A stretch of 64,000 nt of DNA from a bacterium (GCA_030431455.1 JAUIJE010000007.1:1-64000); one strand, 5' to 3'; shown: positions 7,554 to 58,653, numbered from the stretch's first letter. Numbers and translations are program-made. Notes: a model not told the origin generated them from the sequence alone.

Positions 7554-7691
7554 GGTGGGGGCCTCCGGCCCTCGCGATGCACCGGACGCGGCGGTTCGTA
7601 AAGGGGGGCGACGTCGACGGGCACCCCGCCGGGAGCCCGGGGCCAGAAGGGGGTTGTGTCTGGTTCTAAAAATGTGGAAGTGTGCTGCACC

Positions 7692-50040: not shown

Positions 50041-51099
50041 ATGACACTGCAACAAAGGTGGCCATCGCTGCTGCCCTGGGGCTACGGCCCCGATTTTGAA
50101 CCAAGCCTGACCGACCTCGAGAACACCGCGGGCCCGGGCCTTTGCCCCGGACGTGTGGTCCGCCTCGACCGGGGGCGCGCTCTGGTGCACGACGGCGAGG
50201 CCGTGCACGGGTTGCCACTCACCGGCCGCATCGCCCAAGACCCCCTCGCGGTGGGCGACTTTGTCGCCCTCAGCGAAGGCCGGGACCGCATCGTGGGCGT
50301 GCTTTTGCGCCGGCAGTTGCTGGCCCGCCGGCGCGCGGGGAGCAAGCACGGGGTGCAACCTCTGGCCGCCAACCTCGACGAGGTGTGGCTGTGCGCGCCC
50401 GCGGACCGGTTAAACCCGGCGTGGGTCGAGCGCGGCCTCGCCCTCGTCTGGGACTGTGGGGCCCAGCCCCGGGTGGTGCTCACCAAGGCCGATCTGTTGG
50501 CCGACGTGAGCGATACCCTGGACGAGCTCGCGGACCGCGCGCTCGGGGCGGCGGTGTGCGCGGTGAGCGTGCACCAGCCGGAGACGGTGCAGGCCCTGGA
50601 GGCCGCGCTCGCCCCGGGGCAGACCGCGGCGTTGCTCGGCGCGTCGGGGGCGGGCAAGTCCTCGCTGCTCAACGCGTTGCTGGGCCACGAGGTCGCGGCC
50701 ACCTCCGCGGTCCGGGACGGGGACAAAAAGGGGCGGCACACCACCGTGCACCGGGAGCTGTTCATGCTCCCGGGCGGGGGCCTGCTCGTGGACACCCCCG
50801 GCACCCGCGAGCTCGGGCTCTGGCTCGGCGAGGGGGGCGCGGGCTCGGGCTTTGTCGACATCGACGCGCTGGCCGCGGACTGTCGCTTTCGCGATTGTGC
50901 GCACCAGGACGAGCCCGGGTGCGCGGTGCGCGCGGCGGTGGACGACGGGGACCTCGACCCGGACCGCTACGAGAGCTTTTTGCGCCAAGGCCGTGAGCGC
51001 CGTTGGCTCGAGGAGACCGACCACGAGCGGCGCACCCGGGAGCGCGGCTTTGGCCGCATGGTCAAAGACGCCCAGGCCCGCAAGAACCGCGACGGTTAG
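50041..51099 (+). CDS. rsgA: Ribosome small-subunit GTPase RsgA (circularly permuted)
   Basis: 352 residues. OB-fold N-terminal part, then GTPase motifs in permuted order: TKADLL (G4), P-loop GASGAGKSSLLNAL (G1), GRHTT (G2) and VDTPGTRELGL (G3). A zinc knuckle C-x5-C-x-H-x5-C follows (CRFRDCAHQDEPGC). RsgA releases RbfA/late factors from maturing 30S subunits. The 133-bp upstream region shows no identified motif. Its TAG overlaps the stop of a minus-strand gene by three bases. Confidence 0.95.
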   Translation: MTLQQRWPSLLPWGYGPDFEPSLTDLENTAGPGLCPGRVVRLDRGRALVHDGEAVHGLPLTGRIAQDPLAVGDFVALSEGRDRIVGVLLRRQLLARRRAGSKHGVQPLAANLDEVWLCAPADRLNPAWVERGLALVWDCGAQPRVVLTKADLLADVSDTLDELADRALGAAVCAVSVHQPETVQALEAALAPGQTAALLGASGAGKSSLLNALLGHEVAATSAVRDGDKKGRHTTVHRELFMLPGGGLLVDTPGTRELGLWLGEGGAGSGFVDIDALAADCRFRDCAHQDEPGCAVRAAVDDGDLDPDRYESFLRQGRERRWLEETDHERRTRERGFGRMVKDAQARKNRDG

Positions 51100-51410
51100 G
51101 CGGCGTCGCGGGCCGGCGCGAGCTGGCTCGCGATCCACTGCGCGAACGCCACCGCCACGGTGGGGCGCTCCTCGGGGGCGACCCCGATGTCGACGCGGAG
51201 CTGCACCCGCCCGGTGCGGGGCACGACCACCACCCGGGTGCGGCTCTTGTCGTGGTGGAACTCGCGCACCACGGGCATGGTCGCCCGGTCGGTGAGCCCC
51301 ATCGCGCCCAGGGCCGTACACAATGTGTCTGTGTCAATCCCGGCCTCGAACACGAGGCGCCAGCGCAGGCCTTGCACGCAGCCGTGATCGGGTTCGACCT
51401 GCACGCTCAC
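51096..51410 (-). CDS. Small protein at the end of the roadblock/V4R operon
   Basis: 104 residues from a GTG whose GTGA overlaps the stop of the V4R-like gene. Begins VSVQVEPDHGCVQGLRWRLV and has alternating strands (RTRVVVVPRTGRVQLRVDIG) and a C-terminal helix, a small alpha/beta fold. No recognised family. Last gene of a six-gene coupled run, so probably a partner of it. Confidence 0.6.
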   Translation of the reverse strand: MSVQVEPDHGCVQGLRWRLVFEAGIDTDTLCTALGAMGLTDRATMPVVREFHHDKSRTRVVVVPRTGRVQLRVDIGVAPEERPTVAVAFAQWIASQLAPARDAA

Positions 51411-52648
51411 CGTTTGGTCACCACCACGCGGGAGTAGGGGTCGTGCAGCGCCGCGCTGTGGGTTTGTTCGATCGACCAGGGCAGCTCGTCGTCGACGAAC
51501 AGCTCTTGGTAGAACGCCTGGGTGAACTGTGGCCCCTCGGTCCACCGCACCCCGTGGGCGAGCTGCATGATCGCGGCCACCGCCCCCTGGAAAAAGTACT
51601 CGGGGGGCCCGTCGGCGGCGTGGTGTCGAATGCGGAAGTAGGGGACCTCGTAGTTGACCGGGGTCTTGACCGCGAGCTGTTGGCCCCGGTCGAACGTTTC
51701 CAGGCTCCAACGGCCAAAGCCGAGGGCCCGGGCGATGGCCAGGCACCACACCACGATCGTCTCCGGGTCGTCGGGGGGCGGGCCCACCAGGCCTTCCCAT
51801 TCCGGGGAGGACAAGATCCCGCCGAAGGTGTTGAACACGCAGACGTGGCCGGATTCGCGCAACAGGTCCTCGAAGGTCTCGGTGAGCTCGGGGCGTTGGC
51901 GTCGAACCTCCTCGAGGGCATCGAAGCTGATGCGGTTGTAGTAGTTGGCCAGGTGCAATGTGACATACACGCCGAATGCCTCGACCAGGCCACGGTCGTC
52001 GGGCTTGACCCCGCCGAGGAAGGTGTTGAGCCCGTCGGTGATGGTGGCGATTTCCTCTTCGCGCAGCCCGCTCACCGGCATGCCGAGGTGGGCCTTGCTG
52101 GTGGTGGGGTCCACCGGGGGCAGCGGGGGCAGCGGATGGACCGCGTCCCGGATCTCGAACCGGCAGCGTTCGTGGCGCTGGGCCATACACTCGACCTCCC
52201 GGACCCCGAGGTCGTCGGGGCTGCGCCCAAATGCCACTGCAGTCGCGGCGGCGCTGAAGCCCCCGCCGAACTCGTCCGCGGGCGCGAGGCGGCGCACCTG
52301 CCGGCCGTACTTCTCCCGCCAGGTCAGGCCGTAGTGCAGGCTGGTCGAGGTGGCTTCGCCCCCGTGTTCGTTGACGCTGAGGTTGAGCCGGCCGTGCCCC
52401 ATGGCGGCGAAGGTCTGTTTGGCCACCTCCAGGCGTTCGACCGGGGTGGCCCGGGGGTCGCCGGTGATCGAGGCGAGCAGCTCGGCGGCGGCTTGGCGGG
52501 CGGCGTTGCGGCGCAAGGTCGCGCCCCCTTCGCCGAGGGCGTCATCGATGGTCTGGTCGAGGAACAGGTTGAAGTGGTGGCAGTGGTAGACCACCGGGGC
52601 TTGGCCCAGGAACTTCAGGTCGTGCTCAGGAAAACGTTGGATCGACAT
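51407..52648 (-). CDS. Tandem V4R-like (4-vinyl reductase/hydrocarbon-binding) protein
   Basis: 413 residues, cytoplasmic. The first half (about 20-170) reads like a V4R domain: FAAMGHGRLNLSVN, HYGLTWREKYG, FGGGFSAAATAVAFG and ending VECMAQRHERCRFEI, where Cys-x-Ala-x-x-x-x-x-Cys is typical. The second half (about 190-390) is a second, weaker copy: DLLRESGHVCVFNTFGG and VVWCLAIARALGFGRWSLE. V4R modules bind small hydrophobic ligands and are often linked to two-component or roadblock systems. Coupled with the roadblock genes upstream by 6-base gap and with the small gene by GTGA. Confidence 0.65.
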   Translation of the reverse strand: MSIQRFPEHDLKFLGQAPVVYHCHHFNLFLDQTIDDALGEGGATLRRNAARQAAAELLASITGDPRATPVERLEVAKQTFAAMGHGRLNLSVNEHGGEATSTSLHYGLTWREKYGRQVRRLAPADEFGGGFSAAATAVAFGRSPDDLGVREVECMAQRHERCRFEIRDAVHPLPPLPPVDPTTSKAHLGMPVSGLREEEIATITDGLNTFLGGVKPDDRGLVEAFGVYVTLHLANYYNRISFDALEEVRRQRPELTETFEDLLRESGHVCVFNTFGGILSSPEWEGLVGPPPDDPETIVVWCLAIARALGFGRWSLETFDRGQQLAVKTPVNYEVPYFRIRHHAADGPPEYFFQGAVAAIMQLAHGVRWTEGPQFTQAFYQELFVDDELPWSIEQTHSAALHDPYSRVVVTKR

Positions 52649-52654
52649 CGGGCC

Positions 52655-53230
52655 TCACAGATTGATGTGCTCGAGGCCGAGCAGGTCGCGGGCCACGGCT
52701 TCGAGGGTGTCGACTTGGGCCGCGGACAGCGCCGCGGGGGCGCGCAGCGTCGACAAAGGAATGCCCGAGCGGAGCGAGGCGCGCTTGAGCACCGCGTGGG
52801 GATCGGGGGAGTACTTGCGCAGGAAGTCGACGAGGCGGACCCCCTTGGGGCGCTCTTGGGCCTCAAAGCGCGGGACGGTGCGGTCGACCTCGGCGAGAAT
52901 GCGGTCCACGAACAGCCGGACCATGCCCAGCGGGCTGCCGACCTCGAAGATGGACGTGACCACGAAGTTGTCGCGCATCTCTCGAATGACCACGAGGAGT
53001 TCGTCGGCCTCGATGGTGACCTGCATCCGCTGGGACAGGGCGTCCAGCGATTTCAGGCCCGCGTGGTTGGCGCGGATCATGTCGCCAAAATAGGCCGCGG
53101 CGCTGTCCGCGCTCAGCTCGACGTCGTCGCGCCGCCAGTGATCGAACAGCAGCGCGTCGGGCATGGCGGTGACCAGCACCGCCTGAAGGCCGGGAAACTC
53201 CTCGGCGAGTCCGCCGATTTGCTCACGCAT
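52655..53230 (-). CDS. Roadblock/LC7-like protein B
   Basis: 191 residues. Central domain: LQAVLVTAMPDALLFDHW, YFGDMIRANHAGLKSLDALS, ELLVVIREMRDNFVVTSIFE and GMVRLFVDRILAEVD, the longin-like fold that sits as a dimer on small GTPases (MglB) or partner ATPases. A C-terminal extension of ~60 residues (LVDFLRKYSPDPHAVLKRAS onward) is new to me. It overlaps protein A by 8 bases, so the pair is likely made in equal amounts and may heterodimerise. Confidence 0.72.
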   Translation of the reverse strand: MREQIGGLAEEFPGLQAVLVTAMPDALLFDHWRRDDVELSADSAAAYFGDMIRANHAGLKSLDALSQRMQVTIEADELLVVIREMRDNFVVTSIFEVGSPLGMVRLFVDRILAEVDRTVPRFEAQERPKGVRLVDFLRKYSPDPHAVLKRASLRSGIPLSTLRAPAALSAAQVDTLEAVARDLLGLEHINL

Positions 53231-53783
53231 GGTTTTGTGTCCTCGACAAAAGGGTTTGCAGGATGCGCTCGGCGGCCGCACGCAGCGCGCCGAGGGGAAT
53301 GTCGTCGTCAACCTGGGCGCCGACCACGTAGCGGGCCGCGCCCTCCGCGGGGGCGAACACCAAGAACGCGCCCCGGCCGGTGCGCAGCAGCAGCCCGTCC
53401 ACCCGGGTGGCGGCGAACCGCGCGGTCTGGGCCAGCGACCGCAATGCGTCTGCAGCGATGGACGCGGCCGCGGCAGGGGCGTCCCCGGCCCCGGCGATGA
53501 GCAGGCCCTCGTCGTCGGCCACGAACAACGAGGTGTGCAGGACCCGGGACAGGTCGCCGAGCAGGGCGGCGAGGGCGGCGCCGAGGGCGCGCTGCCCGGG
53601 TTCGGCCACCGCGCGCACCCGGGCGGTGGGATCTTTTTCAGGCGCGGGCGCCGGCGCGGGCGATGCTGACCCAGGGGTGGGCACGGGGGCCGGCACCGCC
53701 CGCCGGGGCTTGGTCCCGGCCCCGGCCCGGTGGAGGAGCTGCGAGAGCTCGTCGCCGTCAAAGCAAGAGAGGGATGGGGTCAT
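53223..53783 (-). CDS. Roadblock/LC7-like protein A with Pro-rich linker
   Basis: 186 residues. N-terminal ~20 residues, then a Pro/Ala-rich linker (PAPVPTPGSASPAPAPAPEK) and a roadblock-like C-terminal domain: LLGDLSRVLHTSLFVADDEG, GLLIAGAGDAPAAAAS and TRVDGLLLRTGRGAFLVFAP. Its start overlaps the ParA-like gene by 26 bases and its stop overlaps protein B by 8. The linker would allow it to tether two machines. Confidence 0.68.
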   Translation of the reverse strand: MTPSLSCFDGDELSQLLHRAGAGTKPRRAVPAPVPTPGSASPAPAPAPEKDPTARVRAVAEPGQRALGAALAALLGDLSRVLHTSLFVADDEGLLIAGAGDAPAAAASIAADALRSLAQTARFAATRVDGLLLRTGRGAFLVFAPAEGAARYVVGAQVDDDIPLGALRAAAERILQTLLSRTQNHA

Positions 53784-54558
53784 CGTTGCCGTCGTCGGTG
53801 AGGGGGATGTGTTTGGCGAGCTCGGACGCGAGTTCGTCGAAGCGGCGGGCGATGGGGGGCGGCCGTTTGGACAACAGCCCGAGGGGCACGCCGAGCTCCG
53901 AGGCCTTCAAGAACGCTGGGTCCCGGGGGATGTGCGCGTCGAGGACCAACGCGTGGGGCAGCTTTTGCCAGATGGTGTCCACCACGTTGAGGGAGGCGTC
54001 CACCTGTCGTTGCACCATGGTGAGGATGACCCCAGCGAACTGGACCCGCGCGCCCTCCTCCCGGAGGTCGCCGATGACCTCGAGGAGTTGGGGCAGGGAG
54101 TTGGCCGCCAATGGTTCTGCTTGGAGCGGGGTGAACGCGAGGTCGCTGGCCCGGAGGGCCCCCAGGGTCGAGCCGGTGAGGCCCGCGGGGGTGTCGTAGA
54201 CGATCACGTCGTAATCACGGGCGGTCTCGGCCAACAGGGACAAGCGGAGGCCGTCTTCGAGCTGGTGCATAAACGTCGCGCGCTCGAGGCCGCGGAGGGT
54301 GCCGGTGGGCAGGATCGCGAAGCCGGGCACCCGGGTGGACAGCACCGCCCGCTCCAGGGGCTCGCCCGCGAGGTAACCCTTGAGCCCCTGGGCCGCGGAT
54401 TGTTCGCCCATCAGCGACAGCGCGATGCCCCCTTGGGGATCGGTGTCGACCAGCAGCGTGCGGATGGAGAGCTTGGCCAACGAGAGCGACAGATTCAGGG
54501 CCAGCGTGGTCTTGCCCACGCCCCCCTTCTGGCTCACCAACGAGATCGATGTGGTCAC
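53758..54558 (-). CDS. ParA/MinD-family ATPase
   Basis: 266 residues from the GTG at 54558, whose GTGA overlaps the upstream TPR gene; GAGGAG lies 5 bases before it. Walker A is SQKGGVGKTTLALNLS (deviant KGGxGKT), switch I LLVDTDPQGG, Walker B-like YDVIVYDTPAG. These P-loop ATPases dimerise on ATP and move on nucleoid DNA or membranes. No parB or parS-like gene is nearby, and no membrane-targeting helix at the C terminus, so it is not a plasmid or chromosome partition system. Partners are likely the roadblock and TPR proteins. Confidence 0.93.
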   Translation of the reverse strand: MTTSISLVSQKGGVGKTTLALNLSLSLAKLSIRTLLVDTDPQGGIALSLMGEQSAAQGLKGYLAGEPLERAVLSTRVPGFAILPTGTLRGLERATFMHQLEDGLRLSLLAETARDYDVIVYDTPAGLTGSTLGALRASDLAFTPLQAEPLAANSLPQLLEVIGDLREEGARVQFAGVILTMVQRQVDASLNVVDTIWQKLPHALVLDAHIPRDPAFLKASELGVPLGLLSKRPPPIARRFDELASELAKHIPLTDDGNDDPIPLLL

Positions 54559-55490
54559 CCTTGCTCCTCGAGACGCTGGATGTTGTGTTTGACCCGGAGG
54601 TCCTCGGGCCGGAGCCGCGCACATGCCAAAAAGCCCTGCAGGGCTTCGTCGCGCTGGCCTTGCAGGTACGCCTTGGTGGCTTGCCGAAACAGCTCATCGA
54701 AGGTCGGGTCGGCCACCGCCGGCGGGCTCGAGGCCCGCACTTCCTCGACGGGGGCGGGCACCGCGCTGCCTTCGCCCGAGTACAACCGGGTGGCCTCGCG
54801 GCCCCCCTCCGCCCCTTCCACGGGGAGGTGCAACGCGGGTTCGCGAAGGCCGATGACGCCGAGCTTGTTCAGCTGCAGGAGCAGGCCGAGCGATTCGTGC
54901 CGCTCCATGACCGACACCCGCAAGAGATCGCCCACCGAGCTCTCCCCGTCGATGTGCTCGAGGAAGTCGCGGGCGGTGACGTCGAGGTCGAGCCGGTCGA
55001 GGACCTCGGGGGCGACGTGCACGTCCACCACCTGGTCGAGCGAACCGATGGTGCGCAGCTGCTTGAGCACCAGGCGGTTTTTGACCAGCTGGATCGAACG
55101 GCCGATCTCCGCCGCGCGATCGGGACGCGCGCGCTTGGCGTCGTGCAACAGTGCCAATGCATGGTCGTAGCGGCGCTCCGCGATCAGCGCCTTGATCTGC
55201 TGGGCGAGGATCGACGCCTTCTTTTGGTGGGGGCTGAGGTCGATCACCGGGGCGGGGGGCCCCTGCACATCCAAGGTGAACCCCGCCGTCTCCAGGTAGT
55301 CGCGCGCCTGTTGGTGGTCCGGCGCGAGCACGAGCACTTGGCGCCACGCCGCGATGGCGCGGTCCACCTCCCCCTGGCCGTACGCCTTGAGGCCCTGTTG
55401 GAGCAGTTCCTCGAGGGTCCCGGTCGTCTTTGGCTCGTTGTCGCGCATCGCGTCCCGCGCCTTTCTCCCCCCGGAGACGGCATCCACCAT
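54555..55490 (-). CDS. TPR protein with winged-helix-like middle segment, first gene of the roadblock operon
   Basis: 311 residues if the ATG at 55490 is used (297 from 55448). TPR units flank it: TLEELLQQGLKAYGQGEVDR with RQVLVLAPDHQQARDYLETA, and a last unit FDELFRQATKAYLQGQRDEA. The middle (LDLDVTARDFLEHIDGESSV, GDLLRVSVMERHESLGLLLQ) resembles the winged helix of DUF4388/PatA-type proteins that accompany roadblock proteins. Starts the six-gene run and lies 196 bases from the RND gene. Confidence 0.78.
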   Translation of the reverse strand: MVDAVSGGRKARDAMRDNEPKTTGTLEELLQQGLKAYGQGEVDRAIAAWRQVLVLAPDHQQARDYLETAGFTLDVQGPPAPVIDLSPHQKKASILAQQIKALIAERRYDHALALLHDAKRARPDRAAEIGRSIQLVKNRLVLKQLRTIGSLDQVVDVHVAPEVLDRLDLDVTARDFLEHIDGESSVGDLLRVSVMERHESLGLLLQLNKLGVIGLREPALHLPVEGAEGGREATRLYSGEGSAVPAPVEEVRASSPPAVADPTFDELFRQATKAYLQGQRDEALQGFLACARLRPEDLRVKHNIQRLEEQG

Positions 55491-55687: not shown

Positions 55688-58336
55688 CTAATCGTCGGCG
55701 GGGCGCTTGCCGTCGGGGGACAACCACGCGAGCACCGCGGGGGTCATGAGCAGGTCGTAGAGCAGGGCCAAGAACAGGCAGAACGCCATGAACACGCCAA
55801 AGATGGCGAGGGTGACCATAATCGACGGGGCGAGCACGATGAAGCCACACATCAGGCCGACGGTGGTGACCACCAGCGCCCGGCCCACCGAGGTCATCAC
55901 CTTCCGTGCAGCTTCATTGGAGTCGTCGCCTTGGGCCCGGGCGCGGCGGTACCTTGTGCCAATGTGAATGGTGCCGTCGACCGCGACCCCGATGGCGGCC
56001 ACCGCGATCACCGCGGTCATGAAGTCCACGCTCACCCCCAGCCAGCCCATCAGGCCGTAGGTCGAGAAGATGGGCAGCACGTTGGGGATCATGATCGCCA
56101 TGCCCAACCGCGGGGAGCGGAGCATGAACATCATGATGAACCCGATGATCACCGCCGCGAGCAGGAACGACTTGAGCTGGCTGTCGATGACGTAGTCGTT
56201 GAGCTTGGCGAACAGCGGGGTGGAGCCCGCGATCTCGATGGTGGGCAGGGGGCCTTCGCCGTTGGCCGCCGGGGGGGCGGGGGCGCCGGCGTCGGGCGCG
56301 GTCTCGGCGGGGGTGGGGTCGTGCCGCGGGGTCTTCTCCGCGGTGGGGCTTGGTTCTTCGTCGTCGATGATGATGATGTCGCCGTCGGCGGTGTCCTCGG
56401 GGGTGGGATCGTTGGGCCCGTCCCCGGTGGGCTCGTCGTCGTCGATGATGATGATGTCGCCGTCGTCGTCGGAGGCCGGGGTGGGGGCGGGGGTGTCCGG
56501 CGGGGGCGGGGGCGGGGCATCGCCTTTGTTGAGGTCGAGCTTGATGCGGTAATCGCCGAACAGCTCCTCGGCCTTGGTGCGGAGATCGTGCTCAAGCTGC
56601 TCGGAGCGTTGGGACGAAATCGATCGGGTGCGCGCGCTCATGCGCACCCGGCGCTTTTCGTGGTCGAGCATGTTGCGGGTGATGCCGCCCCCGACCTCAT
56701 ACAAGAACATCAGCTCCGCGGCCTGGGCGTCGGTCTTGGGCAGCACCCGCTCGCCGGTGACGGCGAGGTTGATCTCGCGCATCAGGTCCGCGATGGAGAG
56801 CGTGACCCACACGACGTCGCTCTCGTTGGTCTCCACCCAGCGCTGCAGCTTGTTGAGCCGGGCCAAAAACTCCGCGTCGTACACGCCGTTTTTTACCCCG
56901 GTGTCGATGACAAGCTCCATCGAGGAGCTGCCCCCCATTTTCTCGTCGACGTACTCCACCGTCTGGCGGAAGGGATGGTCGCTGCGCAGGGCGTGCAAGA
57001 AGTTGGTGTCGAACTCGATGTGAATCAGGCCGGCGGAAAACGCGACCGCGAGGAGGGCAAAAAAGAGCGCGACCCCGCGTTTGTTCTGGACCACCCGGTC
57101 GGCGAGGTTGGTGAAGAACTGGTCCGACGTCTTGCGGAACCCTTCGTCGGGGGCGGGGGCTTCCCCCGGCTTTGTCCCCAGCGCGAGCACCGCGGGCACG
57201 AACATCAGCGCGAGCACAAACGAAAGCTGGACCCCGAGGGCGATGAACAGCCCGAGGGTGCGCATGGGGTGCACCGGCGCCGCGAGCATGGCCAAAAAAC
57301 CGATGCCGGTGGTGAGCGCGGTGAGGAAACAGGGGCCGCCCATCGCGCACACCGCCTCGGCGATCGCCTCCTGCCGCCCGAGGTGGGCGTGCAGCAACCG
57401 GTACTCGTTGACGACGTGGATGGCGCTGCCCAACCCGGTGACGATGATCGCGGGGGGCAAGATCGCGTGGATGAGCGACATCTCGGTGCCGGTGGCGGCC
57501 ATGATCCCGAGGGTCCAGATCGTCGAGAACACCACCGTGCCGATGGCCGCGCCCACCTGGCGGAAGCGGCGGAACATGAAGAACAGCACGAAGATGCACA
57601 TCAGCACCGACGCGGTGCCGTAGATGACGGACTCGCGGATGGTCACGACGTTCATCTCGGCGGAGAACACCGGCGGACCCACGAGGCGGGCGTTGAGCTT
57701 GTCGAGGCCGGGCAGCTCGTCGTGCAGGCGCATGACCTCGGTGGCGATGTATGTGGTGTAGGCCCAGTCTTCGAGGATGGGCTGCATGGTGGCGATGATC
57801 GCGCCGACGTTGCCGTCCTTGTTGACGATGGACCGCGAATACACCGGGTGGGTGGTGACCAGGGCTTTGGCCCGCGCGATGTCCTCGGGGGTGGGATTTT
57901 CTTCCTCGAGGATCGGCCCGATCGCGATTTGCCCGGTGCCCGGTTTGAGCGCGGGCGCGTGGAAGGGGTCGAGGATGCCGGAGAACGCCGGCTTGCCCTT
58001 GTACTCCATGCCGTGCAGGGCTTTGAGCAGCCGGTCGACGATCTCGTAGCCCTCGGGGGTGAAGAGGTCGTCGCTCTCCAGAAAAAACATCACCACCTGT
58101 TCGGTGCCGAACACGGCCTCGAACTTGTCCTGGGCCACGAGCATGGGGTCGTCTTCGAGGAAGAACACCCGCCCGTCGTTGTTCAGCCGGAGGCTGGGAA
58201 CAAACGCCCCGAGTCCCACCGTGATCGCCAAAATGGTGACAAGCACCAGGACCGGGCGGGCCACAATGAACTTGCCCAGCTTGTCAAAGCCGGCGCTCAG
58301 GAATTCGTCGACCGCCCCGCGGGTGGGTTCGCTCAT
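55688..58336 (-). CDS. RND-superfamily transporter (MMPL/SSD type) with acidic periplasmic insert
   Basis: 882 residues. Twelve-helix RND plan in two halves: helix 1 ILVARPVLVLVTILAITVGL-like start, five grouped helices (about 220-380), a second periplasmic domain (about 420-700) and last five helices (about 715-870). Motifs include the sterol-sensing-type GxxxD (VTGLGSAIHVVNEYR; VAVDGTIHIGTRYRR). Residues about 605-690 are a disordered acidic insert with twice-repeated GDIIIIDD. Start at 58336 has GAGG 8 bases upstream; 58342 is an alternative. Probably exports lipids or hopanoid-like molecules; substrate unknown. Confidence 0.85.
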   Translation of the reverse strand: MSEPTRGAVDEFLSAGFDKLGKFIVARPVLVLVTILAITVGLGAFVPSLRLNNDGRVFFLEDDPMLVAQDKFEAVFGTEQVVMFFLESDDLFTPEGYEIVDRLLKALHGMEYKGKPAFSGILDPFHAPALKPGTGQIAIGPILEEENPTPEDIARAKALVTTHPVYSRSIVNKDGNVGAIIATMQPILEDWAYTTYIATEVMRLHDELPGLDKLNARLVGPPVFSAEMNVVTIRESVIYGTASVLMCIFVLFFMFRRFRQVGAAIGTVVFSTIWTLGIMAATGTEMSLIHAILPPAIIVTGLGSAIHVVNEYRLLHAHLGRQEAIAEAVCAMGGPCFLTALTTGIGFLAMLAAPVHPMRTLGLFIALGVQLSFVLALMFVPAVLALGTKPGEAPAPDEGFRKTSDQFFTNLADRVVQNKRGVALFFALLAVAFSAGLIHIEFDTNFLHALRSDHPFRQTVEYVDEKMGGSSSMELVIDTGVKNGVYDAEFLARLNKLQRWVETNESDVVWVTLSIADLMREINLAVTGERVLPKTDAQAAELMFLYEVGGGITRNMLDHEKRRVRMSARTRSISSQRSEQLEHDLRTKAEELFGDYRIKLDLNKGDAPPPPPPDTPAPTPASDDDGDIIIIDDDEPTGDGPNDPTPEDTADGDIIIIDDEEPSPTAEKTPRHDPTPAETAPDAGAPAPPAANGEGPLPTIEIAGSTPLFAKLNDYVIDSQLKSFLLAAVIIGFIMMFMLRSPRLGMAIMIPNVLPIFSTYGLMGWLGVSVDFMTAVIAVAAIGVAVDGTIHIGTRYRRARAQGDDSNEAARKVMTSVGRALVVTTVGLMCGFIVLAPSIMVTLAIFGVFMAFCLFLALLYDLLMTPAVLAWLSPDGKRPADD

Positions 58337-58653
58337 GGCCATCGCCTCAATGTCTCAGTGCCGGCCGACCATACCCCATCCGCCCACGATCGGTCCCCCA
58401 CGTCGAGCGACAACTTTCGCTACACGCGATTGCGGCCCCCAAGCCACACCGTCCCCACACGCTGCACCCGGCGGTAGGCATGCCTGGGGACGCGTCACGA
58501 CGCACATGGGCGACGTTCCGGGTCGGCCAAAACGACGCAGTACGCCGCTGTGGGTGAGGCGGCCTGGACGCCGAGCGAGCAGACTCGCATCGGAGTCATG
58601 CTCTGCGAAGAACGCCCGGCTCGAAAGCGGCGAAGCCGATTTTGAGACGAGAA
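58337..58653. other. Non-coding gap before the carbamoyltransferase
   Basis: 317 bp between the RND gene and the carbamoyltransferase (both minus strand). I see no convincing ORF, palindrome or repeat, apart from promoter-like AT-poor sequence next to the RND start. Confidence 0.4.

Follow-up and report, generated by a model that had tools for sequence, protein, structure and literature searches.

What does a ParA-type ATPase do in one operon with roadblock-type and V4R proteins? The question is raised by positions 51096-55490, on the minus strand, of the window (the whole 64,000-nucleotide stretch of DNA that was analysed), where the six ORFs described by the initial annotation are all present and its four junctions all fall where it had placed them: GTGA overlaps at 54,558-54,555 (genes 1/2) and 51,410-51,407 (genes 5/6), a 26-nt overlap at 53,783-53,758 (ParA/RbA) and an 8-nt overlap at 53,230-53,223 (RbA/RbB). 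All six ORFs were also called as genes by codon statistics, with the RbA start called inside the RbA linker, and a promoter scan of the operon gave no match. The operon comprises:

54555-55490, minus strand: gene 1, N-terminal TPR, winged-helix-like stretch and C-terminal TPR tail, 311 aa; putative variable input/adaptor (TPR_2 above the Pfam cut-off)
54558-54710, minus strand: constant C-terminal TPR tail of gene 1, common to adaptors with differing N-termini
53758-54558, minus strand: gene 2, ParA-type deviant-Walker ATPase, 266 aa, GTG start, KGGVGKTT (AAA_31 and PDB profiles)
53758-53783, minus strand: 26-nt ParA/RbA coding overlap, encoding the ParA C-terminal tail and the RbA N-terminal motif
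53223-53783, minus strand: gene 3, RbA, conserved N-terminal peptide, Ala/Pro-rich linker and, as judged from alignment, a roadblock-like domain, 186 aa
53718-53783, minus strand: RbA N-terminal 22 residues, a candidate ParA ATPase-activating peptide (conserved; the function is our inference)
52655-53230, minus strand: gene 4, RbB, roadblock/LC7 domain (~residues 1-120) and C-terminal helical domain (~129-184)
51407-52648, minus strand: gene 5, tandem V4R protein, 413 aa (model, Foldseek, hhalign)
52163-52198, minus strand: E-x2-C-x7-C (E151, C154, C162), a zinc-site-like motif in V4R half 1
51096-51410, minus strand: gene 6, P6, small conserved alpha/beta protein, 104 aa, GTG start (homologue after V4R in 20 of 23 loci)

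The host contig is 463 kb long and belongs to a 7.7-Mb genome that is 97% complete. The operon is flanked on one side by an MMPL-type transporter gene (55,688-58,342, minus strand) and on the other by a convergent rsgA-like gene (50,155-51,099, plus strand), both named by sequence reading. The ends of P6 and the rsgA-like gene overlap by 4 bp (51096-51099), and in the adjoining transporter, of MMPL/RND type, the two halves are separated by a low-complexity insert in which GDIIIIDD(D/E)EP motifs recur.

When genomes were scanned with the V4R protein, 23 loci outside the window were recovered (40-56% identity, far beyond chance), spread over Kofleriaceae, Polyangiaceae, Sorangiineae, Sandaracinaceae, other Myxococcota, Acidobacteriota/Thermoanaerobaculia and MAGs; not all 23 are independent, as L030 and L036 come from one MAG and L034 and L039 likewise from one. 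HMM searches of these loci, with profile models partly built from the same loci, detected RbB in 22, P6 in 20, RbA in 18, the TPR-tailed gene in 16 and ParA in 15, and several of the absences are accounted for by L019, L021, L028 and L033 ending at contig ends. The core order ParA-RbA-RbB-V4R-P6 and its strand are kept across the loci, with the exception of L030, where P6 lies ~2.6 kb further downstream. No MglA-family GTPase was found in any operon locus searched, and the gene order does recur in related genomes without a local mglA. At the same time, the operon system is rare and patchy in its distribution. Of 195 genomes from the host's phylum, 7 give RbB-profile matches at E <= 1e-15 (weaker matches there include the host's own MglB); at E <= 1e-12, such matches come from 3 of 297 genomes for the L032 phylum and 4 of 284 for the L023 phylum, the starting genome being counted in each case.

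Where one of ParA and RbA is missing the other tends to be missing too, a pattern that identifies RbA as the partner of ParA. Within the 23-locus set, ParA is present in all 15 of the RbA loci with enough upstream sequence; L026 and L031 have neither ParA nor RbA, yet retain RbB-V4R-P6; the exception is L043, which has RbA without ParA in the stretch examined. In L027, a copy whose contig carries the title Methyloprofundus sp., the TPR-tailed gene lies directly before RbB, without RbA, and the presence of the copy on that contig may reflect mis-binning or transfer.

Judged by its motifs and profile matches, gene 2 is a true ParA/Soj-type ATPase, as had been proposed: it carries a deviant Walker A motif (QKGGVGKTT) and DTDPQ, and it matches AAA_31 at 1e-24 (Pfam) and ParA/Soj at 4e-41 (PDB). 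The DNA-binding arginines of B. subtilis Soj are only partly kept in the operon ParA, the first being shifted by one residue in the window copy. In a tree in which many inner forks are poorly supported, the operon ParAs stand apart from the host's own ParA paralogues, the nearest of which belongs to a separate canonical parA-parB locus beside a bactofilin-like gene. A Pfam search found no ParB among the six operon proteins.

The assignment of RbB as a genuine roadblock protein agrees with its profile matches and predicted structure. In a PDB profile search only MglB sequences were matched at E < 0.001, and the AlphaFold2 model (pLDDT 89), with the order alpha-beta-beta-alpha-beta-beta-beta-alpha, has mostly roadblock, MglB and Ragulator structures among its top 50 Foldseek matches. 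Comparison by hhalign with the roadblock family gave P 1.9e-5, from a cleaned roadblock set that still holds a few wrong rows, and the Pfam roadblock model matches just one RbB family member (E 0.004). The C-terminal helical domain has invariant D143, H145 and R150. In two homologues (L039:4333-5346 and L043:13606-14355) a long proline-rich insertion lies between the roadblock and C-terminal domains, which shows the two to be separable.

The model of gene 5 (pLDDT 95) is that of a tandem V4R protein, with Foldseek matches to PoxR, MopR, DmpR, MJ1460 and Bet3/TRAPPC3, and its two halves are homologous (hhalign P 1.2e-7). Pfam V4R is matched by 18 of 27 family members; the earlier V4R-like assignment is upheld by the predicted fold, though the window copy itself scores below the Pfam gathering score (21.9 vs 31). 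An E-x2-C-x7-C motif is found in half 1 of 26 of the 27 family members, and its residues correspond to the zinc ligands of MopR; in half 2 the motif is kept in ~10 of 27 (segments read by eye) and is lost in the window copy. Hydrophobic ligands are the suggested binding partners of V4R domains, which share homology with Bet3 (PMC2253512). Two more distant family members (L041 and L042, 26-31% identity) have no ParA, roadblock or P6 match nearby, and in G033 two adjacent V4R segments (L044:6036-7026, minus strand) match the two halves of the tandem V4R in separate frames, outside the main operon.

The status of RbA is less settled. Its C-terminal domain shows an LC7-like pattern, FVAD.EGL...AAxAxL...G...lGlV, and hhalign gave P 0.0088 against the same roadblock set, with its few wrong rows, and 0.0054 against RbB, compared with 0.07-0.29 for decoys. 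LAMTOR5 was its commonest Pfam match, a weak one; Pfam gave no confirmation and a PDB profile search with RbA no roadblock match. The initial annotation's naming of RbA as a roadblock protein therefore stands as far as the sequence pattern and layout are roadblock-like, but found no confirmation in Pfam or PDB, and we consider it plausible but unproven.

How RbA is joined to ParA is striking. In 15 of 15 loci and in the window (16/16), the two genes overlap by 23-32 nt, always in one relative frame (the length is exactly 26 nt in 11 of the 16, L020 being counted from an upstream ATG at 7650), which implies coupled translation of ParA and RbA. One DNA stretch, read in two frames, encodes both the acidic ...PIxLxx tail of ParA and the M..SL.WID motif of RbA. 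Conservation of the two is not independent evidence, since the DNA is shared, and we rejected their treatment as two independent conserved motifs. RbA conservation nevertheless continues past the overlap (the N-terminal pattern is M..SL.WID...L..L...AG, with L..L...AG lying beyond it), suggesting a functional peptide; all 16 sequences have at least one Lys/Arg among their first 22 residues, and the charge enrichment there is modest. A variable linker of 28-145 residues, mostly P/A/S/T/G-rich, separates this N-terminus from the roadblock-like domain. By sequence, this succession of N-terminus, linker and domain is the layout of a ParA-activating protein. For PomX, its N-terminal 22 residues are enough on their own for PomZ activation, and the N-domain is Ala/Pro-rich (PMC7993993); the known ParA/MinD activators are modular, with a short N-terminal peptide containing essential basic residues on an interaction domain (PMC7993993, PMC13170346). 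Taken together, the layout of RbA, its overlap with ParA and the way it tracks the presence of ParA lead us to favour RbA as the ParA activator.

Gene 1, whose TPR assignment was confirmed by a TPR_2 match above the Pfam cut-off and whose winged helix we identify tentatively by sequence reading, has a homologue adjoining the core in 16 of the 23 loci. These homologues share a C-terminal TPR tail of ~53 residues while their N-termini differ: TPR/winged-helix-like in the window and several Myxococcota, receiver-like or receiver plus DUF4388-like in the Acidobacteriota loci and L038, a Ser/Thr kinase in L030, and DUF4388-like by eye in L026 and L037 (the only genes in which DUF4388 passes the Pfam cut-off are neighbours in L022, L034 and L026; in L038 it is sub-threshold). 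A TPR-tail profile run against the host genome matched only the tail of gene 1 and its first TPR. Gene 1 has the look of an input that can be exchanged on a constant docking part. Directly 3' of P6, L022 and L034 encode DUF4388 proteins (L022:10567-11673 and L034:10538-11629; receiver plus DUF4388 in L034), the C-terminal third of which reads like another roadblock domain. P6 itself has invariant C11, R68, R72, R82 and A86; a weak galectin match (E 0.034) is probably due to chance, and we rejected it. The ParA/RbA overlap kept in one frame across loci, the activator-like layout of RbA and the apparent swapping of gene 1 on a constant TPR tail are new with respect to the initial annotation.

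With these parts in hand, we tentatively propose, at somewhat less than even confidence, that the operon products make up a spatial or switch module, driven by ParA and centred on a ligand-sensing roadblock-V4R complex. The sensor/scaffold core would consist of RbB, the tandem V4R protein and P6, and RbA would be the dedicated partner of ParA, its N-terminal peptide contacting the ATP-bound ParA dimer from an Ala/Pro-rich tether and stimulating ATP hydrolysis, while its C-terminal roadblock-like domain would dock on RbB. Through cycles of binding and release, the complex would then be positioned, spaced or segregated along the nucleoid, as the cargoes of ParB, PomX, McdB and TlpT are; a small hydrophobic ligand bound by V4R would tune the complex, and the TPR-tailed protein would link it to other signalling through its exchangeable N-terminus. 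We favour RbB-V4R-P6, perhaps with the TPR protein, as the cargo or sensor. ParA activation by RbA, RbA-RbB pairing, nucleoid binding, ligand sensing and a positioning output are steps that we infer. Weighing against the module are the incomplete retention of the Soj arginines, the modest charge enrichment of the RbA N-terminus, the unproven roadblock fold of RbA, L043 with its RbA but no ParA in the stretch examined, and the MglA genes of the hosts. The proposed module has its closest counterparts in PomXYZ, McdAB, PpfA-TlpT and ParC-ParP, with which it shares an orphan ParA-type ATPase, in a host with a separate parAB, and a partner made of a conserved N-terminus containing basic residues, an Ala/Pro-rich linker and an interaction domain; unlike in those systems, the partner has a roadblock-like domain and is accompanied by RbB, a tandem V4R protein, P6 and a signalling adaptor.

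The main rival, which we consider rather unlikely, is that RbB, V4R and P6 form an accessory regulator of the chromosomal MglA GTPase, TRAPP- or MglC-like, with ParA and RbA only helping to localise it. MglA is encoded elsewhere in 20 of the 21 host genomes searched, and the window's host has an intact mglBA at C8, so RbB could still serve a GTPase; moreover, RbB-V4R-P6 can be retained without ParA. TRAPP pairs Bet3/V4R folds with longin subunits; V4R and roadblock folds both occur among the operon's models, and a TRAPP-like complex acting as exchange factor on a GTPase would be conjectural here. The V4R model also matches Bet3, in line with the homology between V4R and Bet3 (PMC2253512). Co-occurrence with MglA is weak evidence, however, as these lineages commonly encode MglA and roadblock proteins in any case (48 of 58 relatives have roadblock). 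The cluster contains no GTPase gene, and a canonical MglB is also present.

The initial annotation had instead seen an ATPase counterpart of MglA/MglB, with RbA and RbB directly regulating the nucleotide cycle of ParA and V4R as ligand input to a polarity or signalling switch. The NTPase of the operon is indeed of the ParA type, but the premise of an ATPase rather than a GTPase switch is weakened by the presence of MglA in those 20 hosts. RbB has MglB as its best PDB relatives and shares its fold, the two roadblock-type genes resemble the MglB/MglC pair, the operon loci have no MglA homologue, and roadblock proteins were predicted to be NTPase regulators (Koonin and Aravind 2000, cited in PMC4316618). 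The operon differs from MglA/MglB/MglC in having an ATPase for the GTPase, no MglA, a V4R protein and an extra C-terminal helical domain on RbB. Direct control of ParA by RbA and RbB is unlikely in our judgement: the partners known for roadblock proteins are Ras-like GTPases, the activators known for ParA use N-terminal peptides and not roadblock faces (PMC7993993, PMC13170346), and RbB and V4R remain without ParA in L026 and L031. A bacterial polarity or signalling switch built as a TRAPP/MglB-like assembly on a partition ATPase, with roadblock proteins regulating the ParA-type ATPase in place of a Ras-like GTPase and gating by the Bet3-like tandem V4R, seems to us distinctly doubtful. A DNA partition or mobile-element maintenance locus with passenger genes is highly improbable, for although the ParA is genuinely Soj-type and the operon patchily distributed, the signalling partners are conserved, the 463-kb contig carries ordinary genes on either side of the operon, and a plasmid/partition origin was rejected because we found no plasmid match and no ParB among the six proteins (unlike in ParABS, the operon ParA has no neighbouring ParB, the host parAB lying elsewhere). 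Anti-phage defence was likewise rejected, the sole match being a marginal one of ParA to a PADLOC candidate.

Returning to the favoured ParA-driven module, its parts are known but the combination of five to six genes appears to be undescribed. Actinobacterial conservons (Cvn) also combine a roadblock protein, an NTPase and a signal-transduction input in one operon, but the six genes here include no histidine kinase, DUF742 or Ras-like GTPase. Gene 5 has the fold of PoxR, MopR, DmpR and TRAPP Bet3, with E-x2-C-x7-C in half 1, but differs from them in being tandem and stand-alone, with no sigma54 or DNA-binding domain and with the half 2 motif lost in the window copy. Some adaptor homologues and neighbours have receiver and DUF4388 domains, as DUF4388/PATAN proteins do; the operon adaptors, on the other hand, end in a constant TPR tail tied to the operon. 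Within the open PMC library, the scope of our search, we found no paper joining V4R, roadblock and ParA.

The probable role of the operon is to allow a signalling complex to be positioned or switched by the cell upon a chemical cue. If so, ParA-based positioning systems would gain a ligand-responsive member and ParA a partner built on a roadblock scaffold. The operon would also join, in one operon, roadblock and V4R/Bet3, fold families whose relatives build the eukaryotic Ragulator and TRAPP, and the module is compact, with proposed steps amenable to tests with purified proteins.
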